DNA of 64,000 nucleotides from Bacteroidales bacterium (GTDB lineage: Bacteria; Bacteroidota; Bacteroidia; Bacteroidales; UBA932), in assembly GCA_017428245.1 (NCBI GenBank), contig JAFRRF010000002.1, positions 124,001 through 188,000 on the forward strand, read 5' to 3'. Under the pieces are notes generated by a model, which worked only from the letters and a program-made list of their open reading frames with translations, made no database searches and was not told the origin of the DNA. The position numbers and the translations under genes are program-made. Below, one piece after another: positions 2,722 to 47,268 of this stretch. The stretch's first letter is position 1. Each line of letters begins with the position of its first letter.

Positions 2722-5700
2722 ATGAGAAAATCCCTCTTCAAACGGCTCGCCGTGGCCTGTGCCGCCCTCCTCATCGGATGGTCGCTCGCCGCGCAGCCTC
2801 AGGTGACGCTCTCCGGACAGGTGGTCGACGATTTCGGCGAACCCCTGATGGGCGTGGGCGTCATTCAGCAGGGGACCACGCACGGTGTCGCCACCGACCT
2901 GGACGGTATGTATTCGCTGACCGTCCCCGCCGGCGCAACCGTCGAGTTCTCCTACATCGGCTTCAAGCCGCAGACTGTCGTGGCCACCGAGACCGCGACC
3001 GTCAACATCAAACTCCTCCCCGACACGGAAATGCTTGAGGAGACAGTGGTCGTCGGTTACGGTGTCCAGAAGAAATCCGATGTCACCGGCGCCATCTCGC
3101 AGGTGAAGTCGGAAGACATCGCCAACCGTACGATCGCTTCGCCGGAGCAGGCCCTCCAGGGCAAGACCGCCGGCGTCCAGGCCTTCGCGTCGTCCGCCCG
3201 CCCGGGCGCCACGCCGGCCATCCGTGTCCGCGGTATTTCGTCGAACAACGACGCCAACCCGCTCTATGTGGTGGACGGCCGTATCACCAACTCCATCGCC
3301 GGCATCGACCCCAACGATATCGAGTCGATGGAAGTCCTCAAGGACGGCGCCTCCGCCGCCATCTACGGTGCCGAGGCCGGTAACGGCGTGGTGATGATCA
3401 CCACCCGCCGCGGTAAGGGCGACGGCAAGATCAGCTATTCGTACCAGTTGTCTTCCCAGAGCCTGGGCAAGGTTCCGAAGGTGATGAATTCCGAACAGTT
3501 CATCCAGTTCTATATGGAAAAAGGTAACATCGGCCTGAACGACGTGTACGGAAAGTGGGACCAGCACACCAATACCGACTGGCTGGGCGCTTCCTATGAG
3601 AACTCGTTCATGCACCACCACAACCTGACCTTCCAGGCCGGCAACGAGCAGGGAAGCCTCTATGTGTCGGGCTCCTATCTCGACAACAACGGTATGTTCG
3701 TGGGCGACGCCGACGTGTATAACCGCGTTACCGGAATGGTGAACGCTTCCTGGAAATTCAAGCCCTGGCTCGATATCCAGACCAACAACCAGGTGGAATA
3801 CTACAAGGCTCGTTCGGTCTCCGAGGGCAGTGACTACGGTTCCGCCGTGCTGGCGGCCCTGCAGCTCGACCCGATGACCCCGGTCGTGTATGAGATCGGG
3901 CAGGAACCTGAATTCATCAAGGACTACCTGGCGGAAGGCAAGGTGCTGCTCACCGACGAGCTGGGCCGGATCTACGGTATCTCCCAGTTCAACCTTTCGG
4001 AGAACGTCAACCCGCTCGTGCAGCGCGACCGTTCCTACTCCAGCTCCAAAGGCTTCAACATCAACGGTGCCACGTCCCTCAACCTGCGTCCGCTCCCGGG
4101 CCTGACCATCACTTCCCGCCTGGGCTACCGGATGTCGTCCGGCGACAGTTACGGCTACAGCCACGACTACTTCGTGAACGAGGGCTACGCCCACCAGTAT
4201 TATATGTCGGTCAGCGCCAGCGCCAACAACTCGCTGTACTACCAGTGGGAGAACTTCCTCAACTGGATGCACCAGTTCGGCGGCCACAACATCTCGGTGA
4301 TGGCCGGTACCTCCTACAGCCAGACCCGCAGCTACGGTGCCAATGCCGGCATCAGCGGTTCCGACACCGGCGGCGTCATCGATTTCGGTATCAAGCGCGA
4401 CGACCCGCTGTTCTACTATATCAGCCAGGCTACGCCGACCGCGACCAAGAGCGTGGGCGGCGGTGTCGAGAGCTTCAGCCGCAAGAATTCCTACTTCGGC
4501 CGCGTGGGCTGGAACTATATGAACAAATACAATGTCCAGGCGACCTTCCGCGCCGACGCCGCCGACCTCTCGGTCCTTCCCAAGCCGATGCGCTGGGGTT
4601 ACTTCCCTTCCGTGTCCGCCGGTTGGACCCTTTCCGAGGAAAGCTTCTTCCTCCCGCTCCGGAGCGTCGTCTCGTTTGCCAAGCTGCGTCTGAGCTGGGG
4701 CCAGAACGGTTCCATCGCCGGTCTGGGCGGATATTCCTACGCCAATGACATCACCTCCACCGGCCAGTATCCGACCGGCCTGGTGAATTCCGACGGCTCC
4801 TTCCAGTACATCATCGGCTATGCGCCGTCGATGTCGGGCAACCAGGAGCTCAAGTGGGAGACCTCCGAGCAGTTCAACGTCGGTCTCGATATGCGCTTCC
4901 TGCGCGACCGCCTGACCGTGAGCTTCGACTGGTTCGACAAACGGACCAAGGACCTGATCGTGACGGGCATCACTACCTCCACCATCGTGGGCGTGGCCGC
5001 CTCTCCGATGAACGCCGGTAACGTGGACAACAAGGGTATCGAGCTGGAACTCCGCTGGAGGGACCAGATCGGCGAGTTCACCTACGGCATCGCAGGCAAC
5101 TTCTCCACCCTGAAGAACAAGGTCACCTATCTGCACCCGACCTTGAAAGACGGTCTTGCCGGTACGGGCGTGCGCAACTACGGCACCATCACCCGTTTCG
5201 AGATCGGCTATCCGGCCTGGCACCTGTATGGCTACGAATTCGCCGGCATCGACAATAAATCCGGCGAGGCGCTCTTCAACCATTACGAAGAGGACGGCAG
5301 CATCACCACCACCACCGACCCTTCGGACAACGACAAGCGTCACCTGGGTTCCGGTATTCCGACCTATAACTATGGTCTTACCGTCAACGCGGGCTGGAAG
5401 GGCATCGACTTCCTGGTGTTCGCGGCCGGCGCCGGCGGAAACCAGATCCTCAACGCCCTCAACAACATCGACTACACGTCGAACCGTCTGACTTACCTGA
5501 CGGAAGACCGCTGGACCCCGAGCCACACCGACGGCACGATGCCGGCGGCCGGCGCTTCGAACTACGCCAAGTTCCTGACCTCGAGCGGCGTGGTGATGGA
5601 TGCAGCCTACCTGAAGATCAAGCAGATCCAGCTGGGTTACACCTTCCCGAAGAATCTCCTCAAAAAGGCACTCATCGACCAGCTCCGCATCTATGCCTCG

Positions 5701-44998: not shown

Positions 44999-45089
44999 GA
45001 AGCTGCTGCGTGGCAGATAGGTATTTGATTGTTAGTATTTTATAATAAATCGCTTGCGTCAAAACGCGCAACCGAAAATGAGCAAAGTT

Positions 45090-45845
45090 ATGAATATCAA
45101 AAGCTTAGGTGCCACGCTCCTAGTGGCCTTCGGATTGGTTTTGTCGAGTTGTTTAACGTATGCACAGGATTGGGGCGGGCTGCAGCGGTTTGAGGCCGCG
45201 AATGCGGCGCTCGCGGACCCGGTTGCCGGACAGCCGCGTGTGGTGTTGATGGGCGATTCCATTACCGAAGAGTGGCTGCGGCTTCGGCCGGATTTCTTTT
45301 CGTCTAACGGATATGTCGGACGGGGCATCAGCGGTCAGGTGTCGGCGCAGATGCTGGTCCGCTTCCGTCAGGATGTCATCGACCTGCATCCCGCAGCCGT
45401 GGTCATCAATGCCGGGACCAATGACGTCGCTGAAAACCAGGGCCCTTACAGCGAAGACTTCGCCTTCGGCAACATCGTTTCGATGACCGAACTTGCCAGG
45501 GCAAACGGCATTGCCGTCGTTCTGACATCCGTCCTTCCCGCCGCGAAGTTCAGTTGGCGTCCCGCTTTGACAGACGCCGCCGACAAAATCGCCGCCCTCA
45601 ATGTCCGAATCAAGGCCTACGCTGTGGAACAGGGGATTCCCTATGTCGATTATTACACCCCGATGGTCGTCTCCGATCCCTCCCGCGCACTCAATCCCGC
45701 CTATTCCAAAGACGGCGTCCACCCCATCCCCGCTGGCTACGCCGTGATGGAACCCCTCGTGGTCGAAGCCATCAATGTCGCCCTCGCCGCCGCTGCCCAG
45801 GACACCGCCTGCCAGTCGTCTTCCGCCTGCGGCCGCTGCCGATGA
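45090..45845 (+). CDS. GDSL/SGNH-family esterase lipoprotein
   Basis: The 251-residue protein has the SGNH blocks: GDSITEEW (block I, nucleophile Ser), GRGISGQ (block II, Gly), NAGTNDVAE (block III, Asn) and DGVHPIPAGY (block V, Asp and His). It acts on acyl esters, possibly of sugars. The start at 45090 gives a lipoprotein signal (VLSSC); a start at 45078 (MSKVMNIKS) is also open. The stop overlaps the AlkD-like gene's start (ATGA). Confidence 0.88.
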   Translation: MNIKSLGATLLVAFGLVLSSCLTYAQDWGGLQRFEAANAALADPVAGQPRVVLMGDSITEEWLRLRPDFFSSNGYVGRGISGQVSAQMLVRFRQDVIDLHPAAVVINAGTNDVAENQGPYSEDFAFGNIVSMTELARANGIAVVLTSVLPAAKFSWRPALTDAADKIAALNVRIKAYAVEQGIPYVDYYTPMVVSDPSRALNPAYSKDGVHPIPAGYAVMEPLVVEAINVALAAAAQDTACQSSSACGRCR

Positions 45846-46600
45846 ACATCCTCTTAAGTGAAATGATCGCGCACGCCGACCCTTCACAGGTGGCCGGCCT
45901 ATCCCGTTTTTTCAAGACGGGTCCCGGGCAGTATGGGGAAGGCGACAAGTTTCTGGGCATCAAGGTGCCGGTGACGCGCGAAGTCGTGAAAGCCTGTTGG
46001 CGCGACGTCGGCCTTTCCGATTTGGAAGAATGCATCTGCAGCGAGTATCACGAGGTTCGCCTCGCCGCCCTGCTGACGCTGGTCGAGTTGTTTTCTCACG
46101 CGAAAAGACTCCCGGTCAAGCCGGGAGTGACGGGGACGTCATGCCCGACTCGTTCGGGCATCCCGCAGGCGGACTGCGTCGACTTCTATCTGGCCCATAC
46201 GGCATACATCAACAACTGGGACCTGGTGGACCTTTCCTGCTATCCGCTGCTAGGGGTTTGGCTGCTCGATAAGGACCGGACGCTGCTCTACGATCTTGTC
46301 CGCGACGGGAAGACCATCTGGGAGCAGCGCATCGGCATCGTCAGCACCATGACCTTCATCCGCCGTGGCCAACTCGACGATACCTTCGCCATCGCCGACA
46401 TCCTGCTGCATCATCCCCACGACCTCATCCACAAGGCCGTCGGCTGGCTCCTCCGCGAAGCTGGCAAGCGCGACAAAGCCGCCCTCGAGGCCTGGCTTGC
46501 GCCCCGCTATGCGACCATGCCGCGCACGATGCTCCGCTACGCCATCGAAAAGTTCCCGGAAGCCGAACGCCAGCGGTATCTTCAGAAATTAGTTTCGTAA
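45842..46600 (+). CDS. AlkD-like DNA alkylation repair enzyme with palindromic insert
   Basis: The 252-residue protein resembles HEAT-repeat DNA glycosylases of the AlkD family (FFKTGPGQYGEGDKFLGIKVP, DFYLAHTAYINNWDLVDLS, RRGQLDDTFAIADILLHHPHD, AVGWLLREAGKR, MPRTMLRYAIEKFPE), which remove alkylated bases. Between LVEL and DFYLAHT it has about 31 residues, where relatives I recall have about 14. The extra segment (residues of about 89-107) is encoded by a 54-base palindromic repeat. It overlaps the GDSL gene's stop and converges with the gene at 46582, overlapping by 19 bases. Confidence 0.85.
   Translation: MNILLSEMIAHADPSQVAGLSRFFKTGPGQYGEGDKFLGIKVPVTREVVKACWRDVGLSDLEECICSEYHEVRLAALLTLVELFSHAKRLPVKPGVTGTSCPTRSGIPQADCVDFYLAHTAYINNWDLVDLSCYPLLGVWLLDKDRTLLYDLVRDGKTIWEQRIGIVSTMTFIRRGQLDDTFAIADILLHHPHDLIHKAVGWLLREAGKRDKAALEAWLAPRYATMPRTMLRYAIEKFPEAERQRYLQKLVS
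46108..46161 (+). repeat. In-frame palindromic element inside the AlkD-like gene
   Basis: Three hairpins tile this 54-base stretch end to end: ACTCCCGG/CCGGGAGT (46108-46128, loop TCAAG), TGACG/CGTCA (46128-46141, loop GGGA) and ATGCCCGA/TCGGGCAT (46141-46161, loop CTCGT). The length is a multiple of three, so the reading frame is kept. Such palindromes are usual between genes rather than within them. Confidence 0.85.
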
Positions 46601-47268
46601 GTATTGGAGGTTAGTTCTTTGCCGCCGGGCAGATGCGGCCTTTCGGGGACACGGATGGTATAGATTCCGCCATTCATCGGGATTACCTTGCCGTAATCTT
46701 CGGGATGATGGTTGAAAAAATATCGGGCGATATGCAGGAAGAATTCGTCCAGTGGACTGAGATCGGGCAGTGCGACAGCCTTCGCATTATCGTCGTTCAC
46801 CCGGCGGATGGTCCCCACCTCTTGTATCTGGCGCCGCTCCCGCGGCGAGAGCATCTCCTCCGGTACCATCAGGATGCCCGGCAGCATCCTGCTAAACATC
46901 GATTTATCCAGCCTACGGGCGACAGCCGGTTCTTTCTGCAGGGAAAACGCGCTGTCGTACAGGTCGTCGATGGTGTCCATCACCTCGCGGAGGGCGACGA
47001 TACGAACCCCGTCGCCGGCCTGGATCCGGCATTTCTGCCGCAGGCTGTCGGCATCCCACTCACCGATGAGTCCGTCGCGCAACGCCATCGCGACATAGCG
47101 TTCCGCTTCATCGGTGAGCAGCGCCTCCCGGCGCTTCAACGAATCGGCATCCTGCCCGAAGGCAGGGCAAAAGGCAATCGCCGCCTGCCAGCAGACAACC
47201 AGAACGATAGACTTCAGACGGAGTTTCTTGCTTTTCACGAAACTCCTGTCACGCAAGGATAATGCCAA
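46582..47268 (-). CDS. Hypothetical secreted protein
   Basis: I do not recognise this 228-residue protein. A hydrophobic stretch at about residues 18-40 (KSIVLVVCWQAAIAFCPAFG) is a likely signal peptide, preceded by a basic segment, so the true start may be later than 47268. The rest is mainly helical with many charged residues (DSLKRREALLTDEAERYVAMALRD) and a tail GGIYTIRVPERPHLPGG. It overlaps the AlkD-like gene by 19 bases at its 3' end, so the C-terminal residues are encoded opposite that gene. Confidence 0.55.
   Translation of the reverse strand: MALSLRDRSFVKSKKLRLKSIVLVVCWQAAIAFCPAFGQDADSLKRREALLTDEAERYVAMALRDGLIGEWDADSLRQKCRIQAGDGVRIVALREVMDTIDDLYDSAFSLQKEPAVARRLDKSMFSRMLPGILMVPEEMLSPRERRQIQEVGTIRRVNDDNAKAVALPDLSPLDEFFLHIARYFFNHHPEDYGKVIPMNGGIYTIRVPERPHLPGGKELTSNTYETNF

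Follow-up and report, generated by a model that had tools for sequence, protein, structure and literature searches.

A CGTC-tagged REP heterodimer lying in frame within an alkD-family gene of a Bacteroidales bacterium

The DNA analysed here, a stretch of 64,000 nucleotides referred to as the window, contains at 45842..46600 on the plus strand an alkD-family gene for a DNA alkylation repair enzyme of 252 amino acids plus stop. The product matches PF08713 over residues 5-238 (E 4.7e-54). Profile comparison (E about 4e-8) and fold comparison (TM 0.71 to 5clb, E 4.1e-6) both lead to the structures of B. cereus AlkD, and none of the NCBIfam models was matched at E <= 1e-10. The pentapeptide WDLVD (46217..46231, plus strand; residues 126-130), which we take to be the catalytic motif of the AlkD family, aligns with WDSVD of B. 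cereus AlkD; it is located 3' of the insert described below and is intact. Judged by sequence and model, the product is a member of the family, with a predicted AlkD fold and the WD..D motif. On its 5' side the gene is adjoined by an open reading frame (45054-45845, plus strand), the end of which overlaps the alkD start by four bases and which presumably belongs to the SGNH/GDSL-like proteins, as its GDSITEEW motif suggests.

Inside alkD, positions 46106-46162 are occupied by two copies of a hairpin unit of about 27 bp (AGA-stem-TGACG), which are inverted with respect to each other so that their TGACG ends face. The first unit (AGACTCCCGGTCAAGCCGGGAGTGACG; 46106..46132, plus strand) consists of the tail AGA, an 8-bp stem that includes the A-T pair 46108/46128, a loop of 5 and the end TGACG. 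The second unit (CGTCATGCCCGACTCGTTCGGGCATC; 46137..46162, minus strand) consists of CGTCA, the stem-loop TGCCCGACTCGTTCGGGCA and a degraded tail, ATC(C). The facing ends are separated by the 4-base spacer GGGA (46133..46136). The original prediction described three contiguous hairpins that exactly fill 54 bases of this gene. The hairpins are real, at these positions and in frame in a gene of the AlkD family, and the span of 54 bases is exact, its limits being the outermost bases of stems 1 and 2. The number of units, on the other hand, is two: the middle hairpin (46128..46141) is formed by the complementary ends TGACG and CGTCA pairing across GGGA, and was therefore rejected as a separate unit. 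Folded alone, 46106-46162 reaches -34.3 kcal/mol versus -20.1 +/- 2.7 for 200 dinucleotide shuffles (z -5.2), none of which is as good; with the flanks included z is -3.4, again with 0/200 shuffles as good. No Rfam family was assigned to the element, the single match on 45800-46650 being far under the gathering score and elsewhere in the region. Apart from the two units in alkD, the 64-kb window has no clear one.

At the protein level, the insert codons correspond to residues 89-108 (RLPVKPGVTGTSCPTRSGIP; 46106..46165, plus strand), in the loop that connects helices 70-85 and 109-118. The AlphaFold model of the product, built with a 50-sequence alignment, has a mean pLDDT of 88.2; residues 93-103 of the insert fall below 50, and the insert is predicted by AlphaFold to be disordered. 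The modelled position of the extra residues, which had been proposed as a check of the insertion, is thus a low-confidence loop between two helices. The middle loop of alkD has 30 residues here and most commonly 15 in other alkD genes (32 of 97), which gives a net gain of 15 residues, smaller than the 17-19 estimated originally.

The element belongs to a dispersed repeat family. With a 73-bp stretch as query, 56 matches at E <= 10 were obtained in the own genome, the weaker ones not being significant. The exact 15-base core CCCGGTCAAGCCGGG has 31 copies in this genome, compared with 0 for the reversed control pattern, and is present in 21 of the 37 genomes of the genus (own genome counted), at 0 to 83 copies per genome. 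It was found in 0 of the 24 genomes searched from other genera of the order. The genome search suggested by the original prediction thus yields units that are dispersed, many of them outside recognisable genes. The 31 exact cores are the complete set for their pattern, and a second set was derived from loci picked by similarity to the unit in the window: 60 own-genome loci, many of them overlapping, yielded 87 units including chance matches at the loose setting of the unit finder, which were filtered to 48 strict units with flanks (GA and TGACG) matching at at least 6 of 7 points. The core of 43 strict units has 19 bases (loop 5 with an 8-bp stem), and that of the other five has 20 (loop 6). 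The consensus has the tail AGA (TCT on the other strand) and, directly after the stem, GACG (the reverse of CGTC), a tag that is partly due to selection through the strict-unit criterion; the search behind the first loci had no flank or tag requirement. Among strict units spaced by less than 100 bp, nine pairs of neighbours point their TGACG ends towards each other and one pair points them outward. Of its six reading frames, the consensus unit is free of stops in four, and peptides observed are, among others, MPGQAGHD, CPVKPGMT, RHARLDRAS, and VMPGLTGHL.

The stem pairs of the unit covary. In 33 distinct units with the 19-base core and 8 pairs, standard pairing is observed in 99.2% of 264 cells versus 88.6% in shuffles, and 28 cells are changed on both sides versus 7.6 in shuffles (0/500 as high). 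Two of the five measures used do not exceed the shuffles and show no excess, namely pairs with double changes (3; 279/500 shuffles as high) and further pair types (6; 425/500). The first stem pair is A-T in 31 of the 33 units, and the second one is T-A in 24, C-G in eight, and T-G in one.

Measured against the text of PMC3733652 (Di Nocera et al. 2013), the element classifies as a CGTC-tagged REP dimer. In the passages of that paper on which we draw, CGTC REPs (families CGTC-1 to CGTC-4) are palindromes of 20-40 bp, dispersed in many copies, that do not flank transposase genes; they have an unpaired CGTC tag at one end, stems of 8-9 bp, loops of 4-5, and HH dimers, which are predominant, TT dimers being rare. 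The first two stem positions are 'almost invariably' complementary A/T, and the three-base tail fits CCA in 'most' cases. According to the same passages, CGTC REPs occur in five phyla including Bacteroidetes, and the superfamily includes Neisseria dRS3 and the R. conorii elements RPE-4 (CGTC-4) and RPE-6 (CGTC-1). Copies within genes are reported there, many in replication and repair genes, as are REPs that Xanthomonas campestris and X. oryzae carry at nearly the same position in recB. The CGTC REPs are said to 'apparently lack a dedicated transposase', and how they move is presented as an open question.

The repeat analysed here agrees with this description in the unpaired CGTC tag at one end, the 8-bp stem, the loop of 5 in most units, the inverted heterodimers, and the coexistence of many extragenic copies with in-gene members; a transposase gene does not regularly adjoin the units, which we tested here for RAYT-like ORFs. 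If HH denotes dimers with the tagged ends facing, as we read the term, the 9 facing versus 1 outward pairs also fit. Several features differ from the published ones as given in those passages. The tail is AGA/TCT and not CCA, which is a difference rather than an exclusion, since only 'most' tails are stated to fit CCA. The second stem pair conforms only in part, eight of the 33 units having C-G there. The host genus belongs to the Bacteroidales, its named kin being mainly assemblies from ruminant guts, and the same loops of one gene are hit repeatedly across many species.

The likeness to palindromic elements within Rickettsia genes, pointed out in the original prediction, is apt because the text of PMC3733652 assigns the R. 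conorii elements RPE-4 and RPE-6 to the CGTC superfamily as well. Like these, the units are short palindromes in frame in genes that stay open, whereas the phylum and the host genes are different; the relation is taken from that text. The Xanthomonas recB case is similar in that a repair gene shared by related species contains different REPs at nearly the same site; it concerns two species in the passage cited, whereas here 20 of 97 genes and two loops are involved and junctions were compared at the DNA level. Small hairpins, paired units, and RAYT-like genes in the genus are also reminiscent of the RAYT-mobilised GTAG REPs and REPtrons. However, the GTAG tag is absent, the tag being CGTC, and the RAYT-like genes are found here beside other hairpins or none, rarely beside a CGTC unit. 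In-gene CGTC REPs, many in repair genes, have been published, so that the kind of element is known. In particular, the supposed novelty for Bacteroidetes stands only in part, as CGTC REPs had been reported from this phylum, and in-gene REPs from repair genes of several other species, in the cited passages. What we did not find in print are in-gene copies in a Bacteroidales genus and the repeated use of the same alkD loops across many species; in the open-licence PMC literature, searches for palindromes inside Bacteroidetes or Bacteroidales genes and for Rickettsia-like elements returned no report of this case.

The repeat also occurs within other genes. Of the 31 exact cores in the own genome, 18 lie in an open frame of at least 250 aa with at least 65 aa on each side, and the remaining 13 have no qualifying frame. 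As a long frame alone is not proof of a gene in GC-rich DNA, Pfam support was required, and 11 of the 31 cores are in frame within Pfam-supported ORFs (12 counting one ORF without a family match). The unit lies inside the matched stretch in HydF, an endonuclease/exonuclease/phosphatase, an FGGY kinase that is rhamnulokinase-like (under that model's cut-off), AlkD, and GH88. It lies between or beside matched stretches in a U32 peptidase, a PrmC-like methyltransferase, an FAD oxidoreductase, an HU-CCDC81 protein, a tricorn-like protease, and an altronate dehydratase. In the HflX and RsmE frames the exact-core unit is located upstream of the matched domains and of the likely start. No family match was found for the L017/L082 frame with an exact core, or in the tested frames of L065, L077, L085, and L090 (the plus frame for L090). 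Non-exact units were detected in or beside HPPK, WbqC, and RsmE; the kinase, the dehydratase, and alkD each contain one as a second copy. The most decorated among the listed own-genome frames is a U32 peptidase frame (L061:385-2436:-, G000 contig 3), with several VMPGLTGH/EPGMT peptides and four strict units. Among RsmE orthologs, units are present in 3 of the 30 loci read (L199, L201, L208), in a single loop before MIGPEGDFS; this loop is longer in several congeners, where it has no recognisable units, and short in other genera. Given that the decorated genes of the genome are of many kinds (peptidases, a kinase, methyltransferases, HydF, GH88), no leaning to repair is visible.

Orthologs of alkD were then compared. 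By protein search, alkD was matched in 39 of the 61 genomes; scanning named genomes added the best 80 loci of 563 relatives, retrieved with a 3-sequence query in which two sequences carried inserts. Among these best 80 of 563, 68 locus titles name a ruminant, rumen, or RUG isolate (RUG presumably standing for rumen) and 12 do not. After removal of 12 duplicates and the partial L060, the 110 loci yielded 97 distinct alkD genes. The non-loop part is 201 residues long in 71 of them, whereas two loops vary in length: the middle loop ranges up to 79 residues, and the C-terminal loop, located before MPRT, has 16 residues in 72 genes and up to 60 in the others. We identified 34 CGTC units, all within these two loops, in 20 of the 97 genes, a proportion that is not a population frequency because the loci were chosen with a partly insert-bearing query. 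The middle loop accounts for 26 units in 17 genes and the C-terminal loop for eight units in six genes, and the remaining 55,440 bases scanned contain 0. For this confinement a naive binomial gives 3e-23, and 3e-10 is obtained with 13 minimum changes and short-loop lengths; both values ignore relatedness and ascertainment and are a guide only. Of general hairpins with at least 7 pairs, the middle loop contains 31 and the C-terminal loop 11, and 12 lie elsewhere in alkD. Both unit orientations occur in the middle loop of nine genes, and the net gain of unit-bearing middle loops over 15 residues is 4 to 37.

The other 77 alkD orthologs have no recognisable unit, and loop length varies among them too. 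The uninserted form anticipated by the original prediction exists in relatives: 32 genes have a 15-residue middle loop and no unit, for example L041 and L042 of the same genus, L152, and L186. At the insertion point, the 97 genes display a short loop, other REP units, or other loop sequences, and none was seen to encode the same residues by unrelated DNA, the pattern that was named as the mark of an ordinary protein loop. Some loops have features of other kinds. The middle-loop inserts of L134 and L138 contain short tandem duplications (ETIKPGVT/ETIKSGV, and EWAPGVT twice), which suggests slippage after insertion. L044 and L045 have in common a third insertion of 14 residues (MLPADWQERA...) after CWKE, without a CGTC unit. 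Both loops of L045 and the middle loop of L195 contain CHSERSEES, apparently another coding-frame dispersed repeat at the same hot spots; no CGTC unit was found in these loops, and no report of the peptide CHSERSEE in the open-licence PMC literature.

We consider it highly probable (about 0.9) that the element is a CGTC-tagged REP inverted heterodimer of a family spread through the genus, lying in frame in an inter-helix loop of alkD. The dispersed repeat, the relatives without it, and the location in a loop support the original view of an in-frame inserted palindromic element. Such an element would be a small non-autonomous repeated DNA, of which the stem-loop is the unit kept and copied, possibly by a HUH tyrosine transposase (RAYT-like) or by a replication-linked single-strand process. 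Its arrival was probably by insertion rather than by recombination between relatives. Within genes a copy could survive only where the unit reads through without a stop and the protein tolerates a loop; in alkD it would encode a disordered peptide, likely neutral or nearly so, while the AlkD fold and WDLVD stay intact.

The empty site of L186 reads CAC GCG AAA / AAG GAC CCG GCG CTC CGG / CAG, and the filled site in the window reads CAC GCG AAA / AGA CTC CCG GTC AAG CCG GGA GTG ACG ... GGC ATC CCG / CAG; in most carriers AAR is followed by the AGA-unit. The dimer has thus replaced about six short-loop residues (KDPALR in L186), which implies either that the insertion was not clean or that it was trimmed later. 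No near-identical pair of alkD genes with and without the insert was found, and thus no insertion was caught in progress. A quick tree was built without the loops from 69 of the 71 genes with exactly 201 non-loop residues, two genes with less than 62% identity to the reference being left out, and the remaining 28 of the 97, unit carriers among them, fall outside it. On this tree, unit presence has to change state, by gain or by loss, at least nine times in the middle loop and at least four times in the C-terminal loop. A single clade of the 12 middle-loop carriers in the tree is rejected (AU p 0.0047), and for the 15 VKPG/AKPG carriers as one clade the AU test gives p 0.041; both tests rest on the quick tree and on groups that were defined with the tree already in view. 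We read these data as pointing to several insertion events or repeated exchange behind the alkD units.

Most carriers share the junction and the frame (RxPVKPG(M/V)T), which leaves room for a different history, in which alkD received one or a few old insertions that homologous recombination then spread among congeners, the stems diversifying or being lost, in place of many separate insertions at one point. The 27 of 66 inner branches that are open in the tree, with its many weak forks, and the value of only p 0.041 for the VKPG/AKPG group are compatible with such a history. We nevertheless regard it as doubtful, though a serious candidate, since stems, loops, and spacers differ between lineages, single units are found in some carriers and dimers in others, units also occur in the second loop, RsmE independently demonstrates a similar pattern, and the unit carriers do not form one clade in the AU test.

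The unit-bearing alkD gene looks functional, as suggested by its sequence: WDLVD is retained in all 20 unit-bearing genes, internal stops are absent from them, and dN/dS over the non-loop codons is low. It is 0.063-0.106 for five pairs with units in both members, 0.108 for one pair with a single carrier, and 0.062-0.149 for three pairs without units. Within the units, synonymous differences are rarer than elsewhere in the gene for L122/L134 (1 in 23 sites versus 0.44 per site, p 3e-5) and L119/L120 (0 in 11 sites, p 0.005), less clearly so for L119/L121 (p 0.03) and L120/L121 (p 0.02), and not rarer for L119/L124 (p 0.56); L136/L141 and L138/L139 were left out because not all of these genes are in the tree set. 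As the unit finder favours intact hairpins, the low synonymous change is treated as a hint only, either of hairpin upkeep or of recent conversion.

The same hint would agree with an insert kept for its function, as an mRNA hairpin tuning alkD expression or as a loop altering the enzyme, and alkD is a repair gene, a class for which Di Nocera and colleagues (PMC3733652), in a passage on REPs in repair genes, speculate on a functional role. We judge this improbable: apart from the bias of the finder and the lack of effect in L119/L124, 77 of the 97 alkD orthologs have no recognisable unit, and the other decorated genes are of many kinds. As for an ordinary low-complexity protein loop whose DNA is palindromic by chance, the variation of alkD loop lengths without recognisable units speaks for it, but it is refuted to within a very small residual chance by the copies of the same DNA outside genes and in several other reading frames elsewhere in the genome, by the covariation of stems, and by the shuffle comparison of folding.

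We suggest, as a speculation that is rather unlikely to hold, that the middle loop of alkD is a recurrent landing site in this genus. CGTC REP dimers would have inserted there on several independent occasions, each time at one nucleotide junction, owing to a likeness, judged by eye, of the empty site (AAR AAG GAC CCG G) to the REP start (AAAGAnnCCCGG). If true, this would suggest that copying is homology-guided or site-selecting, possibly carried out by the RAYT-like HUH transposases of the genus, for a REP class said to have no dedicated transposase. The genus is suited to such questions: given its range of 0 to 83 cores per genome, the copies inside genes of many families, and the alkD and rsmE loops that are short, unit-filled, or long without units, gain, tolerance, and loss are traceable in a real tree, and candidate mobilisers are testable by co-occurrence. 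A further implication is that loop peptides such as VKPGMT, MPGQAGHD, and RHARLDRAS in gut metagenome proteins can be repeat-derived.

Matches to PF01797 (RAYT-like) at E <= 0.001, mostly weak, were found in 26 of the 37 genomes of the genus. The exact core is present in 19 of these 26 and in 2 of the 11 genomes without a match (Fisher p 0.0034, uncorrected for kinship). Clustering of the RAYT-like ORFs at 40% identity gave four clusters spanning at least three genomes, the largest of which (38 ORFs, 20 genomes) is commoner in repeat-rich genomes (MWU p 5.5e-5), the other three having p values of 0.04, 0.15, and 0.22; these co-occurrence values ignore kinship, incomplete genomes, and multiple tests. 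A simple link is contradicted by one genome (G018), which contains 39 cores and no PF01797 match. A unit lies within 600 bp of only 2 of the 62 RAYT-like ORFs, with none for the other 60, and this count depends on the pattern used: L101 is included in it but is absent with a looser unit pattern, and vice versa for L113, the looser pattern detecting units beside RAYT-like ORFs in L109 and L113 among 20 regions. In view of these flanks and of the G018 counterexample, RAYT was set aside as the obvious mobiliser.

Among 12 regions inspected, two RAYT-like genes have near-identical hairpins on both sides, at 2691-2724 and 3861-3896 in L104 and at 1916-1943 and 3028-3055 in L107. These hairpins are unlike the CGTC unit, and the two genes resemble the 'TIRtrons' as described in the passages of PMC3733652 cited above. 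In L104 (G015 contig 33), the RAYT-like ORF (2818-3768) is located about 0.2 kb from alkD, and the alkD gene of this contig has the longest middle loop seen, 79 residues.
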